A DNA stretch of 64,000 nt. Source: Shinella curvata. Lineage in GTDB: Bacteria; Pseudomonadota; Alphaproteobacteria; Rhizobiales; Rhizobiaceae. The translations under genes were made by a program, and so were the position numbers. How positions within the stretch are numbered: position 1 is the stretch's first letter; each line of letters opens with the position of its first letter. Location: assembly GCF_022899935.1 (NCBI RefSeq), contig NZ_JALJCJ010000002.1, positions 248,001 through 312,000 of the forward strand, in the 5' to 3' direction. The notes under the pieces are model-generated. The model made no database searches. It was given only the letters and a program-made list of their open reading frames with translations, and was not told the origin of the DNA. This document shows positions 20,324 through 53,598 of this stretch, one piece after another.

Positions 20324-21316
20324 TCAAAGAAGGAAGTCGCCCTTCAGCAGGCTGTCCACGCCGCGCACTTCGATTTCCAGATCGGCACGGCCGTCGCCGT
20401 TGATGTCGCCGGAGACGATGCCGTCCTTGAAGCGCAGCTCGCCCGCCTTTTCGGAGAAGGCGTTCGCACCGATGAAGCTGAAGGCCTGATTGCCGGCTTG
20501 ACCGGAAACGGCGTCGATGCCGCGCAGGTCGATCCTGTCGCGTTCACCGTGGTTGAAGTCGAGGATGACGTCACGGCCGTCGCCCGCCACACTTTCCAGA
20601 CGGGAGTTGAAGTCGAAACGGTCAGCGCCGGCATCGCCCTGAAGCAGATCCGTGCCGCGCCCGCCGACGAGCACATCATTGCCGGCGCGGCCCGCCAGGG
20701 CGTCGTTACCGCCAAGGCCTTTCAGCACATTGGCGACGCGCGAGCCGAAGATGGCGTCGTCGGCATTCGTGCCTTCGGCTCTCTCGATGCTGATCAGCTG
20801 TTCGAAGCGGTTGGCGCCGGTCTGGGCGATCCCTTGCTGCAAGTCGATGCCGACGCCGGAACCGCCGACCACATTGTCGTCGTCGCGGGGCAGATAGCTG
20901 ATGGAATCCACGCCCTTGCCGCCGTTGAATGTGTTCTGCTGGCCGACCGAGAAGAAGCGGTCGTTGCCGCTTTCGCCCAGATAGGTGCTCTTGAAGGTGC
21001 TGACGACGATCGTGTCGTTGCCGGCACCGGCCTTGAGGAAATCTGCGCGCTCGCTGGAAAAGGAGGCGAAGCCCGTGCCGACATAGGTGTCGTTGCCGCT
21101 GCCGAGCAGGATGACGTTGCCGTCTTCCTTGGCGTTGACAACATTGTCGTTGCCGGCGCCCGCATTGACGAAGTTGCGGCCGCCGAAATCGTCGGAACGA
21201 TCGAGAATGATCGTGTCATTGCCGCTGAGCGCGCGGATCGTCAGGTCGGTGTTGTTGATATTGCCGCCCTGGACGATGCGGTCTGCGTTGCCGGTTCCGG
21301 TGATCGTGCGTGCCAT
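20324..21316 (-). CDS. RTX-type calcium-binding protein (hemolysin-type repeats)
   Basis: A 330-residue protein without signal peptide. It has at least eight degenerate and canonical nonapeptide repeats (GAGNDNVVNA, GSGNDTYVG, GLGGNDALAGRAGNDVLVGG, GDAGADRFDF) that bind calcium in a beta-roll. The end (DINGDGRADLEIEV then SLLKGDFLL) matches type I secretion signals of rhizobial RTX proteins. No ABC exporter, membrane fusion protein or catalytic domain is adjacent, so it relies on an exporter encoded elsewhere. Confidence 0.85.
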   Translation of the reverse strand: MARTITGTGNADRIVQGGNINNTDLTIRALSGNDTIILDRSDDFGGRNFVNAGAGNDNVVNAKEDGNVILLGSGNDTYVGTGFASFSSERADFLKAGAGNDTIVVSTFKSTYLGESGNDRFFSVGQQNTFNGGKGVDSISYLPRDDDNVVGGSGVGIDLQQGIAQTGANRFEQLISIERAEGTNADDAIFGSRVANVLKGLGGNDALAGRAGNDVLVGGRGTDLLQGDAGADRFDFNSRLESVAGDGRDVILDFNHGERDRIDLRGIDAVSGQAGNQAFSFIGANAFSEKAGELRFKDGIVSGDINGDGRADLEIEVRGVDSLLKGDFLL

Positions 21317-50005: not shown

Positions 50006-50620
50006 CTAAAGCGCCTGTATGATCTTGCGCAGCGCCTCGTTGCGGGCGCCGAGCATCAGCACGTTCTTCATGGCGAGCTTCGGATCATCCGTGCGGAAGA
50101 TCACGCCGTTTCCACGCACCTTGCGGTCGATCGCGAGGCGGCCTTCGTGGTCCGTCGGCGTGATGGCGACGGCGAAATACATGCGGCCCTGCTTTTTCGA
50201 AATGCCGGCGAAGAACTGCTCTTCCTCGCCGATTTCGGCAAAGAAATTGGCCATGTAGAAGGCCCACTGCACATTCTGGAAATCCGCAAAGCTCGAATTG
50301 GCCACCGTGATGTGGCAATAGCCGAGATGCGGCGTTTCCGCGAGCGTGCGGTGAAAAATCAGTTTTGGAAACTGGATCGAGCGGTGAAAGCCGTTGATGC
50401 GGTCATGCGTGACGGAGCCGGCGCGTTCCAGCTTGCGGCCCGTGCGTTCGGCCACCTCGGTATAGGTGAGGTAGCGCTTCTCGCTCGGGCTCCAGTTGTC
50501 GGGCGTGCGGTCGATGCGGCCGGTGCGCAGGAATTCCGTATGCACGGCGGATTTCGGCGGGTTCTCGCGCTTGTAGGCGACGGCATCGTAGTAACGAAAC
50601 TTCGTCTGCTGTTGCTGCAC
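50006..50620 (-). CDS. Conserved hypothetical protein (DUF6656-like)
   Basis: A 204-residue protein: KFRYYDAVAYKRENPPK at the start, RYLTYTEVAERTGRKLERAG in the middle and VQWAFYMANFFAEIGEEEQFFAGISKKQG near the end. No membrane helix. GTG 50620 with GGGAG 8 bases upstream is preferred over GTG 50629. Its stop lies 3 bases from the stop of the GGDEF gene. The DUF number is from memory. Confidence 0.6.
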   Translation of the reverse strand: MQQQQTKFRYYDAVAYKRENPPKSAVHTEFLRTGRIDRTPDNWSPSEKRYLTYTEVAERTGRKLERAGSVTHDRINGFHRSIQFPKLIFHRTLAETPHLGYCHITVANSSFADFQNVQWAFYMANFFAEIGEEEQFFAGISKKQGRMYFAVAITPTDHEGRLAIDRKVRGNGVIFRTDDPKLAMKNVLMLGARNEALRKIIQAL

Positions 50621-50870
50621 GCCCGGCACTCCCTGCTCGCGCGGCGCTGTGTGTTCGCGCCCTGATAGCGGAAGTTTATGGAAACGCTGTTAAGCATTCC
50701 TTGCCGTTTGCCCCCTGAAACCTTGCAGGGGTGTTTTCGTGGTCGCAATATGACAACTCGCTTCTTTGTGTACCCTGTTGCCCATTCGGTCGTCATTCTG
50801 CGCGATTAAACGGCACACTATATTGATATATATCGGTAAATAAGATCGATGAGGGTGCGGTCTACATTTT

Positions 50871-50886
50871 TTTGACTGTCGTCAAA
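50871..50886. promoter_or_regulatory. Inverted repeat upstream of the riboswitch
   Basis: TTTGAC and GTCAAA arms with a 4-base centre, 65 bases before the riboswitch. The surrounding region (50797-50945) is AT-rich for this genome and holds poly-T stretches, so it is the likely promoter area of the gbc genes; the exact promoter hexamers are not clear. Between 50621 and this point I see no gene. Confidence 0.4.
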
Positions 50887-50950
50887 TCATGAAAGCGCGT
50901 CGTTTTTTGACATGTCGCCCAGCGATTCTTGCGGTTAGATAAGGACACTC

Positions 50951-51135
50951 AAGGTGCCGCCTTCTAGGGAGGGCGGAGAATTGGGAAGCCGGTTAAATTC
51001 CGGCGCTGCCCCCGCAACGGTGTTGGAGAAAACGCGGCACAAAGCCACTGGACGGAATGTCTGGGAAGGCGCCGCATGGGTCGCAGGTCAATCCTGCAAT
51101 GACCACTCCTCAGCCCGGAAACCAGCCTGGAGAAA
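50951..51135 (+). promoter_or_regulatory. Cobalamin (B12) riboswitch
   Basis: All hallmark blocks of the cobalamin aptamer are present in order: GGGAAGCCGGTTAAATTCCG (about 50983), GCTGCCCCCGCAACGG (51005-51020), AGCCACTG (51043-51050), CTGGGAAGGCG (about 51061) and the B12-box part AGCCCGGAAACCAGCC (51112-51127). Outer helices can form with CCGCC/GGCGG pairs. The expression platform lies between 51136 and the gbcA start at 51249. Riboswitches of this class usually repress when adenosyl- or methylcobalamin is bound. Confidence 0.93.
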
Positions 51136-51215
51136 AGATCGTGACTGGCTGCGGCGGGCGGCCGGGAAGCGTGCACGCCGGGCGTTTCGCGCCTGGATGC
51201 CGTCTCCTCCGTGCG

Positions 51216-51242
51216 CCTCATCCCCAAACTGGACTTATGAGG
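51216..51242 (+). promoter_or_regulatory. Hairpin masking the gbcA ribosome binding site
   Basis: CCTCAT (51216-51221) can pair with ATGAGG (51237-51242), the segment that holds the GAGG ribosome binding site before the ATG at 51249. The loop is 15 bases. This could be the OFF state of the riboswitch, or a simple leader hairpin. Confidence 0.4.
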
Positions 51243-51248
51243 ATTGCC

Positions 51249-52493
51249 ATGGATATCCGCAGCGACGTGCTCCGCAAGCTCAAGAACCGGCGTGAAGGCC
51301 ACAGCCTCGAGCAGGCATTCTACATCGACCCCGACCATTACAAGCTCGACATGGAGACGATCTGGTATCGCGACTGGCTGTTCATCGGCCATGATTGCGA
51401 AATCCCCAAGGCCGGCAATTATTTCACCGTGCAGGTCGGCGATTATCCCGTCGTCATCACCCGCGACCGCTCGGGCACTATCCGCGCGCTGCACAATTCC
51501 TGCCGCCACCGCGGCTCGCGCGTCTGCACCCAGCACAAGGGCACCTCGGCCAAGCTCGTCTGTCCCTATCACCAGTGGACCTACGAGCTCGACGGCTCGC
51601 TGCTCTTCGCCCGCCACATGGCGGAGGATTTCGACAGGACGCAGCACAGCCTGAAGCAGATCCACTGCGAGACCCTCGGCGGCTACATCTTCATCTGCCT
51701 TGCCGATCAGGCGCCGGATTTCTCCGCCTTCCGCAGCACGGCAGAACCCTATCTCGCCCGCCACCGTCTCGGTGAAACCAAGATCGCGTTCGAAAGCACG
51801 ATCATCGAGAAGGGCAACTGGAAGCTCGTCTGGGAAAACAACCGCGAGTGCTATCACTGCGCCGCCAACCATCCCGAACTCTGCCGCACCTATCCCGAGG
51901 CGCCGAGCGCCACCGGCGTGCAGGGCGCCAAGGACGATCCGGTGATTGCCGAACACTGGGCCCGTTGCGAGGCAAAGGGTCTGCCGAGCGAATTCAAGAT
52001 CTCGCCGACCGGCCAGTTCCGCGCCGCCCGCATGCCGCTCATCCAGGATGCCGAGAGCTACACCATGTCCGGCGCGCGGGCCGTCCAGCGCCCGCTGTCG
52101 AACGATGTGCTTGAAAGCGGCATCGGCACGCTGCTCCTCTTCCACTATCCGACGACCTGGAACCACGTGCTGGCCGACCACGCCATCACCTTCCGCGTCC
52201 TGCCGCTCGGTCCTGAGCTGACGCAGGTCACGACCAAGTGGCTGGTCAACAAGGACGCCGTCGAGGGTGTCGACTACCGCCTCGACGAGCTCACCCATGT
52301 CTGGACCGAGACCAACGACCAGGACCGCCAGATCGTCGAGGAAAACGCCTTCGGCATTCGCTCACCGGCCTATCAGCCCGGTCCCTATTCGCCGGAAGAC
52401 GAGGGTGGCGTCATGCAGTTCGTCGAGTGGTATTCGAATTTCATGATCGATCGGCTCGATGGCGCCAAGGCGTCGCTGTCGCGGGTGGCCTGA
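51249..52493 (+). CDS. gbcA: Rieske-type aromatic-ring-hydroxylase-like oxygenase (glycine betaine demethylase GbcA type)
   Basis: A 414-residue Rieske oxygenase. Rieske cluster: CRHRGSRVC and CPYHQW (CxH...CxxH). Mononuclear iron: EGNNRECYHCAANH-type block with His, His and the Asp ligand (seen as NRECYHCAANHPE). The protein begins MDIRSDVLRKLKNRREGH, characteristic of the GbcA/stachydrine demethylase (Stc2) group. With the reductase next to it, it should remove a methyl group from glycine betaine or stachydrine, giving formaldehyde. The ATG at 51249 has GAGGA 7 bases upstream. Confidence 0.88.
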   Translation: MDIRSDVLRKLKNRREGHSLEQAFYIDPDHYKLDMETIWYRDWLFIGHDCEIPKAGNYFTVQVGDYPVVITRDRSGTIRALHNSCRHRGSRVCTQHKGTSAKLVCPYHQWTYELDGSLLFARHMAEDFDRTQHSLKQIHCETLGGYIFICLADQAPDFSAFRSTAEPYLARHRLGETKIAFESTIIEKGNWKLVWENNRECYHCAANHPELCRTYPEAPSATGVQGAKDDPVIAEHWARCEAKGLPSEFKISPTGQFRAARMPLIQDAESYTMSGARAVQRPLSNDVLESGIGTLLLFHYPTTWNHVLADHAITFRVLPLGPELTQVTTKWLVNKDAVEGVDYRLDELTHVWTETNDQDRQIVEENAFGIRSPAYQPGPYSPEDEGGVMQFVEWYSNFMIDRLDGAKASLSRVA

Positions 52494-52494
52494 T

Positions 52495-53598
52495 ATGACG
52501 GTTTCGAGCCATTTCCGTCATTTCGACGAACTTCATCCCTGGCACGATCGCCACAACCTGCTCGAATGCATCGCCGCCACCGTAGAAACGGCCGACGTGA
52601 TGACGTTCACCTTCAGCTCCGATCAGAAGAACTGGTTCCGCTATCTGCCGGGCCAGTTCGTCACGTTGGAGCTGCCGGTGTCGGAAGACGAGCCGGTCAT
52701 GCGCACCTACACGCTGTCCTCGACGCCCTCGCGGCCATTCTCCGTCGCGGTGACGGTGAAGGCGCAGAAGAACTCGATCGGCACGCGCTGGATGTTCGAT
52801 CATCTGCGCCCCGGCATGAAGCTGAAGGCCTTCGGCCCGCTCGGCGACTTCTCCTTCGTGCGCTACCCGGCGGAAAAATACCTCTTCATTTCGGCGGGCT
52901 CGGGCGTCACGCCGATGATGTCGATGACCCGCTGGATGGCCGATTGCGCGCCACAATCCAACGTGGCCTTCGTCTCCTGCGCTCGCAAGCCCGAGGACCT
53001 GCTGTTCAAGCCGGAACTCGAATGTCTCGCCGCCCAGATGCCGAACCTCGCGCTCGGCTTCGTCGTGGAAGGTCACAATCCGCGTGACGGCTGGCACGGT
53101 CTGCGCGGCCGCATCGATGCCGCCCGCCTTTCGCTGCTCGCACCTGACTTCCGCGAGCGCACCGTCTTCTGCTGCGGCCCCGAACCGTTCATGCGCGGGG
53201 TCAAGGACATGCTCAAGGTCTGCGGCTTCGACATGAACCGCTACCACGAGGAAAGCTTCCAGCCGGCAAACGCCCCCGCTCCGGAGGAGATCGCCATCCG
53301 CGCCGGTGCCGGCGAGCAGGCCGCCGACGCCAACGCCGTCTCGACGATCACGTTCACCATGGCCGGCAAGGACGCCCAATGCCCGCCCGGCCAGACGATC
53401 CTGCAAACGGCGCGCGCTGCGGGCGTGCGCATAGGTGCGGCCTGCGAGGGCGGCCTCTGCGGCACTTGCCGGGTCATGAAGGTTTCGGGCGAAGTCGAGA
53501 TGCGCCACAATGGCGGCATCCTCGATGACGAGATCGAGGAAGGTTACATCCTCGCCTGCTGCTCAAGGCCTATCGGCGACGTGCAGATCGAGGCTTGA
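52495..53598 (+). CDS. gbcB: Ferredoxin-NADP-type reductase with C-terminal 2Fe-2S domain (GbcB type)
   Basis: A 367-residue reductase: FAD domain with RTYTLSS, NAD(P) domain with SAGSGVTPMMSM and FCCGPEPFM, and a C-terminal plant-type ferredoxin domain with CEGGLCGTC and, near the end, ILACCSRP (fourth Cys). It passes electrons from NAD(P)H to the Rieske oxygenase before it; ATG follows the gbcA stop by one base, so they form one operon. Typical of GbcB/Stc partners. Confidence 0.9.
   Translation: MTVSSHFRHFDELHPWHDRHNLLECIAATVETADVMTFTFSSDQKNWFRYLPGQFVTLELPVSEDEPVMRTYTLSSTPSRPFSVAVTVKAQKNSIGTRWMFDHLRPGMKLKAFGPLGDFSFVRYPAEKYLFISAGSGVTPMMSMTRWMADCAPQSNVAFVSCARKPEDLLFKPELECLAAQMPNLALGFVVEGHNPRDGWHGLRGRIDAARLSLLAPDFRERTVFCCGPEPFMRGVKDMLKVCGFDMNRYHEESFQPANAPAPEEIAIRAGAGEQAADANAVSTITFTMAGKDAQCPPGQTILQTARAAGVRIGAACEGGLCGTCRVMKVSGEVEMRHNGGILDDEIEEGYILACCSRPIGDVQIEA

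Follow-up and report, generated by a model that had tools for sequence, protein, structure and literature searches.

The window (the whole 64-kb stretch of Shinella DNA that was analysed) carries a gbcAB-like operon at 51249-53598. Its first gene (51249-52493, forward strand; ATG at 51249, stop codon at 52491-52493) codes for a gbcA-like group Vb Rieske oxygenase, an N-demethylase recognised by the Pfam domains Rieske and Ring_hydroxyl_A. The second gene (52495-53598, forward strand), whose ATG at 52495 comes one base after this stop, codes for a gbcB-like ferredoxin-flavin reductase with the Pfam domains FAD_binding_6, NAD_binding_1 and Fer2. Using an Rfam covariance scan (cmscan), we observed a cobalamin riboswitch aptamer (RF00174) upstream of the operon, at 50935-51144 on the forward strand, scoring 109.7 bits (gathering score 31.5), with an E value of 1.3e-26 and a match over the full length of the model (positions 1-189). 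An earlier note on this DNA had proposed a cobalamin aptamer in front of gbcA-gbcB, at 50951-51248, and had suggested a covariance search as a check; the significant match bears this out, and the proposed span takes in most of the aptamer and runs on through the leader as far as the start codon. RF00174 was the sole Rfam family reaching its gathering threshold in a scan of the whole window. The distance from the end of the aptamer to the ATG of the gbcA-like gene is 104 nt. A full-length match to RF00174 makes adenosylcobalamin the likely ligand, and the aptamer thus probably binds cobalamin in this form.

The gene names gbcA and gbcB given in the earlier note held for the class of enzyme, since the domains of a group Vb Rieske oxygenase and of its reductase were found, but not at the level of the NCBI equivalogs. 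Indeed, the GbcA-like protein scored 510.9 bits on NF058607 (cut-off 670) and the GbcB-like protein, with a fitting domain make-up, 382.8 bits on NF058606 (cut-off 500). When the oxygenase was aligned by CntA residues E205, C206, H208 and C209, Asn198 in the motif NNRECYHC occupied the position of CntA Y203, and the motif NRECYHC was present in 58/58 homologues examined. In PMC7948474, Asn instead of Tyr or Phe at the CntA-203 position is described as a mark of the group Vb Rieske demethylases (GbcA, BmoA, Stc2), enzymes that take N-methyl groups off glycine betaine or stachydrine. Stc2 of Sinorhizobium meliloti scored 496 bits on the same NF058607 model and fell in a separate, supported clade. 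The closest relatives of the GbcA-like protein among titled genome records were from Shinella, with 93% and 91% identity. Since the score is below the GbcA cut-off and Stc2 belongs to another clade, the label "gbcA-like demethylase" is safe on these sequence comparisons, and glycine betaine is the likely substrate. Similarly to GbcAB of Pseudomonas and Chromohalobacter, the Shinella pair combines a group Vb Rieske oxygenase with an FAD/NAD/2Fe-2S reductase; it differs from them by its scores below the equivalog cut-offs and by its position under a B12 riboswitch. Stc2/Stc4 of S. meliloti (PDB 3VCA and 4QUP by sequence match) belongs to the same group Vb, with an oxygenase that is about 56% identical, but apart from the separate clade it differs in that the Stc2-like loci of three genomes (G087, G001 and G095) are without a riboswitch.

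We then investigated the conservation of this arrangement in 151 genomes of the family. A GbcA homologue was found in 74 of them at E 1e-60, and 55 had one that was at least 65% identical; the 55 do not include the Stc2-like homologues from G087, G001 and G095. These 55 gbcA loci were taken as the orthologous set, and the upstream region of every one was scanned for RF00174. The survey of other Rhizobiaceae that the earlier note had called for yielded RF00174 directly upstream of gbcA, on the same strand, in 39 of the 55 loci, the other 16 being below threshold. The B12 box, GCCCGGAAACCAGCC at 51113-51127 (forward strand) in the window, was found with at most two substitutions in all 39 riboswitch-positive leaders and is altered in one of them (G091, see below). 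The conserved stretch GCCACTG of the aptamer (51044-51050, forward strand) is exact in many, not all, orthologous leaders. RNAalifold predicted 44 pairs from 17 orthologous aptamers, 21 of which are kept through changes on both sides. Taken together, the presence of RF00174 at the same place in 39/55 orthologous loci and these two-sided changes rule out a chance match.

A second set of 80 gbcA loci was drawn from titled records and scored by the B12-box motif, L122 alone being additionally scanned with Rfam. The box was present upstream of gbcA in 53 of them, including loci from Shinella, Ensifer, Sinorhizobium medicae, part of Rhizobium, Mesorhizobium, Aminobacter and Pannonibacter, and was absent from those gbcA loci of the set that belong to the Rhizobium leguminosarum group, Agrobacterium, Brucella and Ochrobactrum. 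We also observed rhizobial-type gbcA genes (68-77% identity) in records titled Bacillus subtilis SK6B4 (L162), Sphingomonas paucimobilis NBRC 13935 (L176) and an Arenimonas bin (L119); these contigs are likely mislabelled or contaminated.

In a further step, the leader between aptamer and start codon was searched for signs of its mode of control. The sequence CCTCAT (51216-51221, forward strand) is predicted to be the 5' arm of a hairpin that would hide the ribosome site; it pairs with ATGAGG (51237-51242, forward strand), the 3' arm, which overlaps the Shine-Dalgarno core GAGGA (51239-51243). Stems of length at least 6 covering the Shine-Dalgarno site were found in 31/39 riboswitch-positive leaders compared to 2/14 riboswitch-negative ones, from which two of the 16 were excluded because their site was unrecognised by the rule used. 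The sequence of these stems varies among genera, and their pairing is kept. Measured against shuffled leaders, 8 of the 39 stems were significant singly, with a combined p of 1e-4 (relatedness ignored) versus 0.85 for the negatives. The stem of the window leader was itself not significant in this comparison (p 0.31), and the fold of the leader as a whole did not surpass that of shuffled sequence (z 0.03). No terminator-like site was detected between the aptamer and the gbcA-like gene of the window. An intrinsic terminator in the leader was also considered and rejected: two terminator-like matches were found, one before the aptamer and one inside it on the opposite strand, with 0.9 expected by chance. 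No sigma-70 promoter was found in 50600-51300. Given stems over the Shine-Dalgarno site and no terminator, we expect the leader RNA to repress translation on binding cobalamin.

The genome of the window also codes for the B12-dependent counterpart of GbcAB, with four copies of MttB (PF06253), an MtgC-like and an MtgD-like protein. One mttB gene begins before the window, which contains its 3' part at positions 1-785 on the forward strand (PF06253, 774 bits; it matches G000:C12:247280-248767). One MttB gene clusters, in locus L019, with genes for an MtgC-like B12-binding protein and a pterin-binding protein resembling MtgD, together with genes for DUF1638 and MetF-like proteins and for a reactivator of the RACo type; this last gene is cut off at the end of the locus. 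The MtgC-like protein scored below the NCBI cut-offs (214.6 versus 370 bits for NF047996 and 177 versus 310 bits for NF047995); both of its B12-binding domains were recognised, and its gene neighbours resemble the set of Ruegeria pomeroyi. In that bacterium, knock-outs of mtgC and mtgD together with proteomics link the gene set to the demethylation of glycine betaine and to methionine synthesis, as described in PMC12478193, which also presents GbcAB and MtgBCD as alternatives of different bacteria. The Shinella cluster is thus similar to the MtgBCDE betaine methyltransferase/split methionine synthase of R. pomeroyi in that genes for MttB, MtgC-like, MtgD-like, DUF1638, reactivator and MetF-like proteins lie together. 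In contrast to what is presented there, GbcAB and an MtgBCD-type system share one genome in Shinella, and GbcAB stands under a B12 riboswitch.

Nine RF00174 riboswitches were found in this genome. By profile, their targets include gbcAB, metE, class Ib nrdEF (preceded by a pair of small genes), bluB, fdhA, and a 71-aa ORF followed by metH; a further target codes for an ABC-transporter binding protein that scored below its NCBI cut-off, and two more riboswitch neighbours were identified by eye only, as a TonB receptor and a cobalt transporter. The genome also has cobH. Elsewhere in the window, a gene at 20324-21316 on the reverse strand codes for a repeat-rich 330-aa protein that resembles, by eye only, a calcium-binding repeat protein.

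If GbcAB were a B12-free stand-in for MttB/MtgC, the riboswitch would be expected only where the corrinoid route exists. We thus searched for MtgC in the same 151 genomes and found it in 111 of them. Among the genomes of the orthologous set, MtgC was present in 38/39 with a riboswitch on gbcA compared to 1/16 without (Fisher p 2.1e-11), and MttB was found in the same 39 of the 55 genomes as MtgC. Counted by genus, the figures were 27/28 and 1/12 (p 6e-8). In the second set, MtgC was examined in 50 genomes behind titled records and was present in 30/31 riboswitch-positive and 1/19 riboswitch-negative ones (p 2e-11), one match (L160) being a fragment; an overlap between this set and the first is possible. 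The 30 of its 80 loci that were omitted came from metagenome bins, isolates not named to species level, additional Mesorhizobium and records with doubtful titles. All 16 riboswitch-negative gbcA genomes hold cobalamin riboswitches elsewhere, and one genome, G115, provides an internal control, with a riboswitch on metE, none on gbcA and no MtgC. In the earlier note, GbcAB had been put forward as the B12-free alternative to the MttB/MtgB-type route, with B12 gating the choice between them; the presence of the corrinoid genes and their distribution argue for this reading.

On the GbcA tree, the riboswitch and MtgC traits each need 10 changes. Strongly supported branches provide five independent pairs, of which 3.7 agree on average and 0 disagree (p 0.125). 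With only five such pairs, part of the signal may come from shared ancestry, and the phylogenetic independence of the link is partly shown. The exception among riboswitch-positive genomes is G091, which lacks MtgC; its aptamer scores 61 bits, has an altered B12 box and no GCCACTG, and looks to be in decay judging from these changes. The exception in the second set, Rhizobium sp. Leaf371 (L114), is likewise riboswitch-positive without MtgC and has the same altered B12 box as G091. Two genomes count against the rule in the other direction: in G099 and Ciceribacter lividus (L122), MtgC and gbcA are both present, yet no riboswitch was found near gbcA even at E 0.1. Moreover, the Stc2-like homologues (56-58% identity) of the MtgC-positive genomes G087 and G095 have no riboswitch despite MtgC, and the rule is thus limited to the GbcA clade and does not extend to all related demethylases. 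The gbcA leaders at L037:2889-3083 and in L114, both from MtgC-less genomes, have a decayed-looking riboswitch with an altered B12 box and no GCCACTG; loss of the riboswitch following loss of the B12-dependent partner is a possible explanation.

The following model builds on the observed riboswitch and its conservation, and on the corrinoid genes and their co-occurrence with it; ligand, direction of control, shared substrate and physiological role are parts that we infer. With plentiful B12, a cobalamin (probably adenosylcobalamin) riboswitch would repress the translation of gbcAB, and betaine-type quaternary amines would be demethylated via MttB/MtgB, MtgC and MtgD, the methyl group passing to tetrahydrofolate and no formaldehyde being formed. 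When B12 or cobalt is short, the aptamer would be empty and the ribosome site free, and the O2- and iron-dependent GbcAB would take over, releasing the methyl group as formaldehyde; in the window strain, fdhA has a B12 riboswitch of its own. This would be the same logic as that of metE/metH and of class I/class II ribonucleotide reductase, carried into catabolism. To the whole model, in which a B12 riboswitch turns off GbcAB as a back-up to corrinoid betaine demethylation, we assign a probability of about 0.7. In a more general form, which we consider fairly probable, B12 (cobalt) supply would switch rhizobia and their relatives between two betaine demethylations, a corrinoid one yielding methyl-tetrahydrofolate and an O2-dependent one yielding formaldehyde; formaldehyde removal would be under the same signal in some strains, and the riboswitch would last only as long as the corrinoid route. 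The riboswitch would thus mark those genomes in which GbcAB is the back-up and not the main enzyme.

The same switching logic could operate on a shared substrate other than glycine betaine, such as stachydrine or another betaine. The GbcA cut-off was missed (511 versus 670 bits) on a model that gives Stc2 496 bits, and the 39 MttB-bearing genomes hold 1-7 copies of a protein whose copies, according to PMC12478193, serve differing quaternary amines in other bacteria. However, Stc2 of S. meliloti lies in another, supported clade, and the MtgBCD-type cluster found here resembles the Ruegeria one tied to glycine betaine, so that we regard a different N-methylated substrate as rather unlikely. A leftover of genome history, with the riboswitch copied in together with a B12 gene and playing no regulatory role at gbcA, would fit the numerous RF00174 copies (nine in the window genome); it is hard to reconcile with a B12 box, spacing and paired positions kept in 27 genera that also have MtgC, or with the erosion of the aptamer in G091, a genome without MtgC, and we consider it extremely improbable.

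Two further explanations place the benefit of GbcAB in what it supplies and are both, in our judgement, quite improbable. Betaine is used in industrial B12 fermentation, and the conversion of betaine to glycine would feed 5-aminolevulinate and S-adenosylmethionine. Cells short of B12 might therefore induce betaine demethylation to obtain glycine and one-carbon units from which corrin and methyl groups are made, and the window genome does have the B12 synthesis marker cobH. Yet cobH does not track the riboswitch (33/39 riboswitch-positive versus 13/16 riboswitch-negative gbcA genomes, p 0.71): the riboswitch on gbcA is kept in six genomes in which cobH had no match and is missing from 13 in which cobH is present, so that precursor supply for B12 was rejected as the driver. 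Nor does precursor supply predict the tie to MtgC/MttB. Alternatively, low B12 would disable MetH/MtgCDE, and GbcAB would supply C1 units to MetE instead of replacing MttB. This rescue of methionine synthesis agrees with the closeness of the metE and gbcAB riboswitches in L055, L056 and L058; however, metE (E 1e-100) was found in only 10/39 riboswitch-positive genomes versus 1/16 riboswitch-negative ones, and since this association is not significant (p 0.15), a methionine back-up was likewise discarded as the driver of the riboswitch on gbcA.

The metE and class I ribonucleotide reductase (nrd) genes are examples of B12-riboswitch-controlled isozymes. Cobalamin riboswitches on isozymes of B12-dependent enzymes form an established category in the main text of PMC3766115, in agreement with the class of B12-free substitutes to which the earlier note had assigned gbcAB. 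Our case is similar to metE and nrdAB in its RF00174 aptamer, its B12-free target and the B12-dependent partner in the same genome, as well as in the proximity of riboswitch-gbcAB to riboswitch-metE and/or riboswitch-nrdAB in six relatives. It differs in that the gbcAB target is catabolic and O2-dependent and is not a same-product isozyme, formaldehyde being expected instead of methyl-tetrahydrofolate, and in that, in at least two genomes, the regulon also takes in a formaldehyde dehydrogenase. The words betaine, Rieske and demethyl- are absent from the main text of PMC3766115; in PMC12478193, "riboswitch" occurs once, in the reference list, and its main text has no B12 riboswitch on GbcAB. 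Consistent with the newness supposed in the earlier note for a B12-gated choice of route, we found no report of the link between B12 riboswitch and GbcAB in the main texts of open papers; an unlabelled RegPrecise entry is possible. The observation at this locus is correct, and its interpretation is well supported by the comparative evidence from these genomes. The principle of B12-free substitutes would thereby extend to catabolism, that of an osmolyte very common in plants and soil, and cobalt/B12 supply would be tied to formaldehyde production. It may also bear on an old puzzle, namely that Sinorhizobium has a second system for degrading betaine (Barra et al. 2006, cited by PMC12478193). Moreover, a riboswitch on gbcA would provide a simple genomic rule for the presence of the corrinoid route.

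The neighbourhood of the operon was further inspected in relatives. In loci L055-L060, riboswitch-gbcAB lies within a few kb of riboswitch-metE (L055, L056 and L058) and/or riboswitch-nrdAB (L055, L056, L057, L059 and L060), the nrdAB genes of L056 being checked by profile and those of L055, L057, L059 and L060 read by eye; these loci are a small island of B12-free substitutes. In the window genome, fdhA, coding for a glutathione-independent formaldehyde dehydrogenase (TIGR02819, 698.8 bits, above the cut-off of 636.95), lies at L014:9334-10497 behind a riboswitch identified by RF00174 at L014:10710-10910. Just upstream, on the same strand, is metE (L014:11184-13541, assigned by profile). Among the 151 genomes, 17 have fdhA, with a riboswitch directly upstream in two, the window genome and G103, which are both MtgC-positive. 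In G060 a riboswitch is situated about 1.3 kb further upstream, beyond an opposite-strand ORF, and no riboswitch at fdhA was found in the 12 fdhA genomes without MtgC. The gene itself is commoner in riboswitch-negative (10/16) than in riboswitch-positive gbcA genomes (5/39, p 4e-4), as expected if the former depend on GbcAB all the time. The second Rieske oxygenase gene of the window genome (product 35% identical to GbcA), which has no riboswitch, lies with an AraC-type-looking regulator gene (by eye) at L014:13903-16590 (G000:C15), directly upstream of the riboswitch-metE-riboswitch-fdhA series on the same strand.

We also observed a family of 70-90 aa proteins, with no Pfam or NCBIfam match, encoded just beyond gbcB in many riboswitch-positive loci (L053, L056-L060, L064, L067, L068, L071, L073, L075, L076, L146, L150, L154, L156, L171 and L183; in L053 and L146 on the strand opposite to gbcB). 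No riboswitch-negative gbcA locus matched this family at E 1e-4, most of these loci being covered for only 1.5 kb beyond gbcA. A 71-aa member of the family lies in the window genome at L015:4803-5018, between a cobalamin riboswitch and metH; this riboswitch is strong (135 bits), and metH, which follows the ORF, codes for a B12-dependent enzyme (L015:4487-8894, G000:C17). Finally, a fluoride riboswitch (L056:15084-15142) and a TPP riboswitch (L067:2891-3007) were found near the riboswitch-gbcAB of two relatives.
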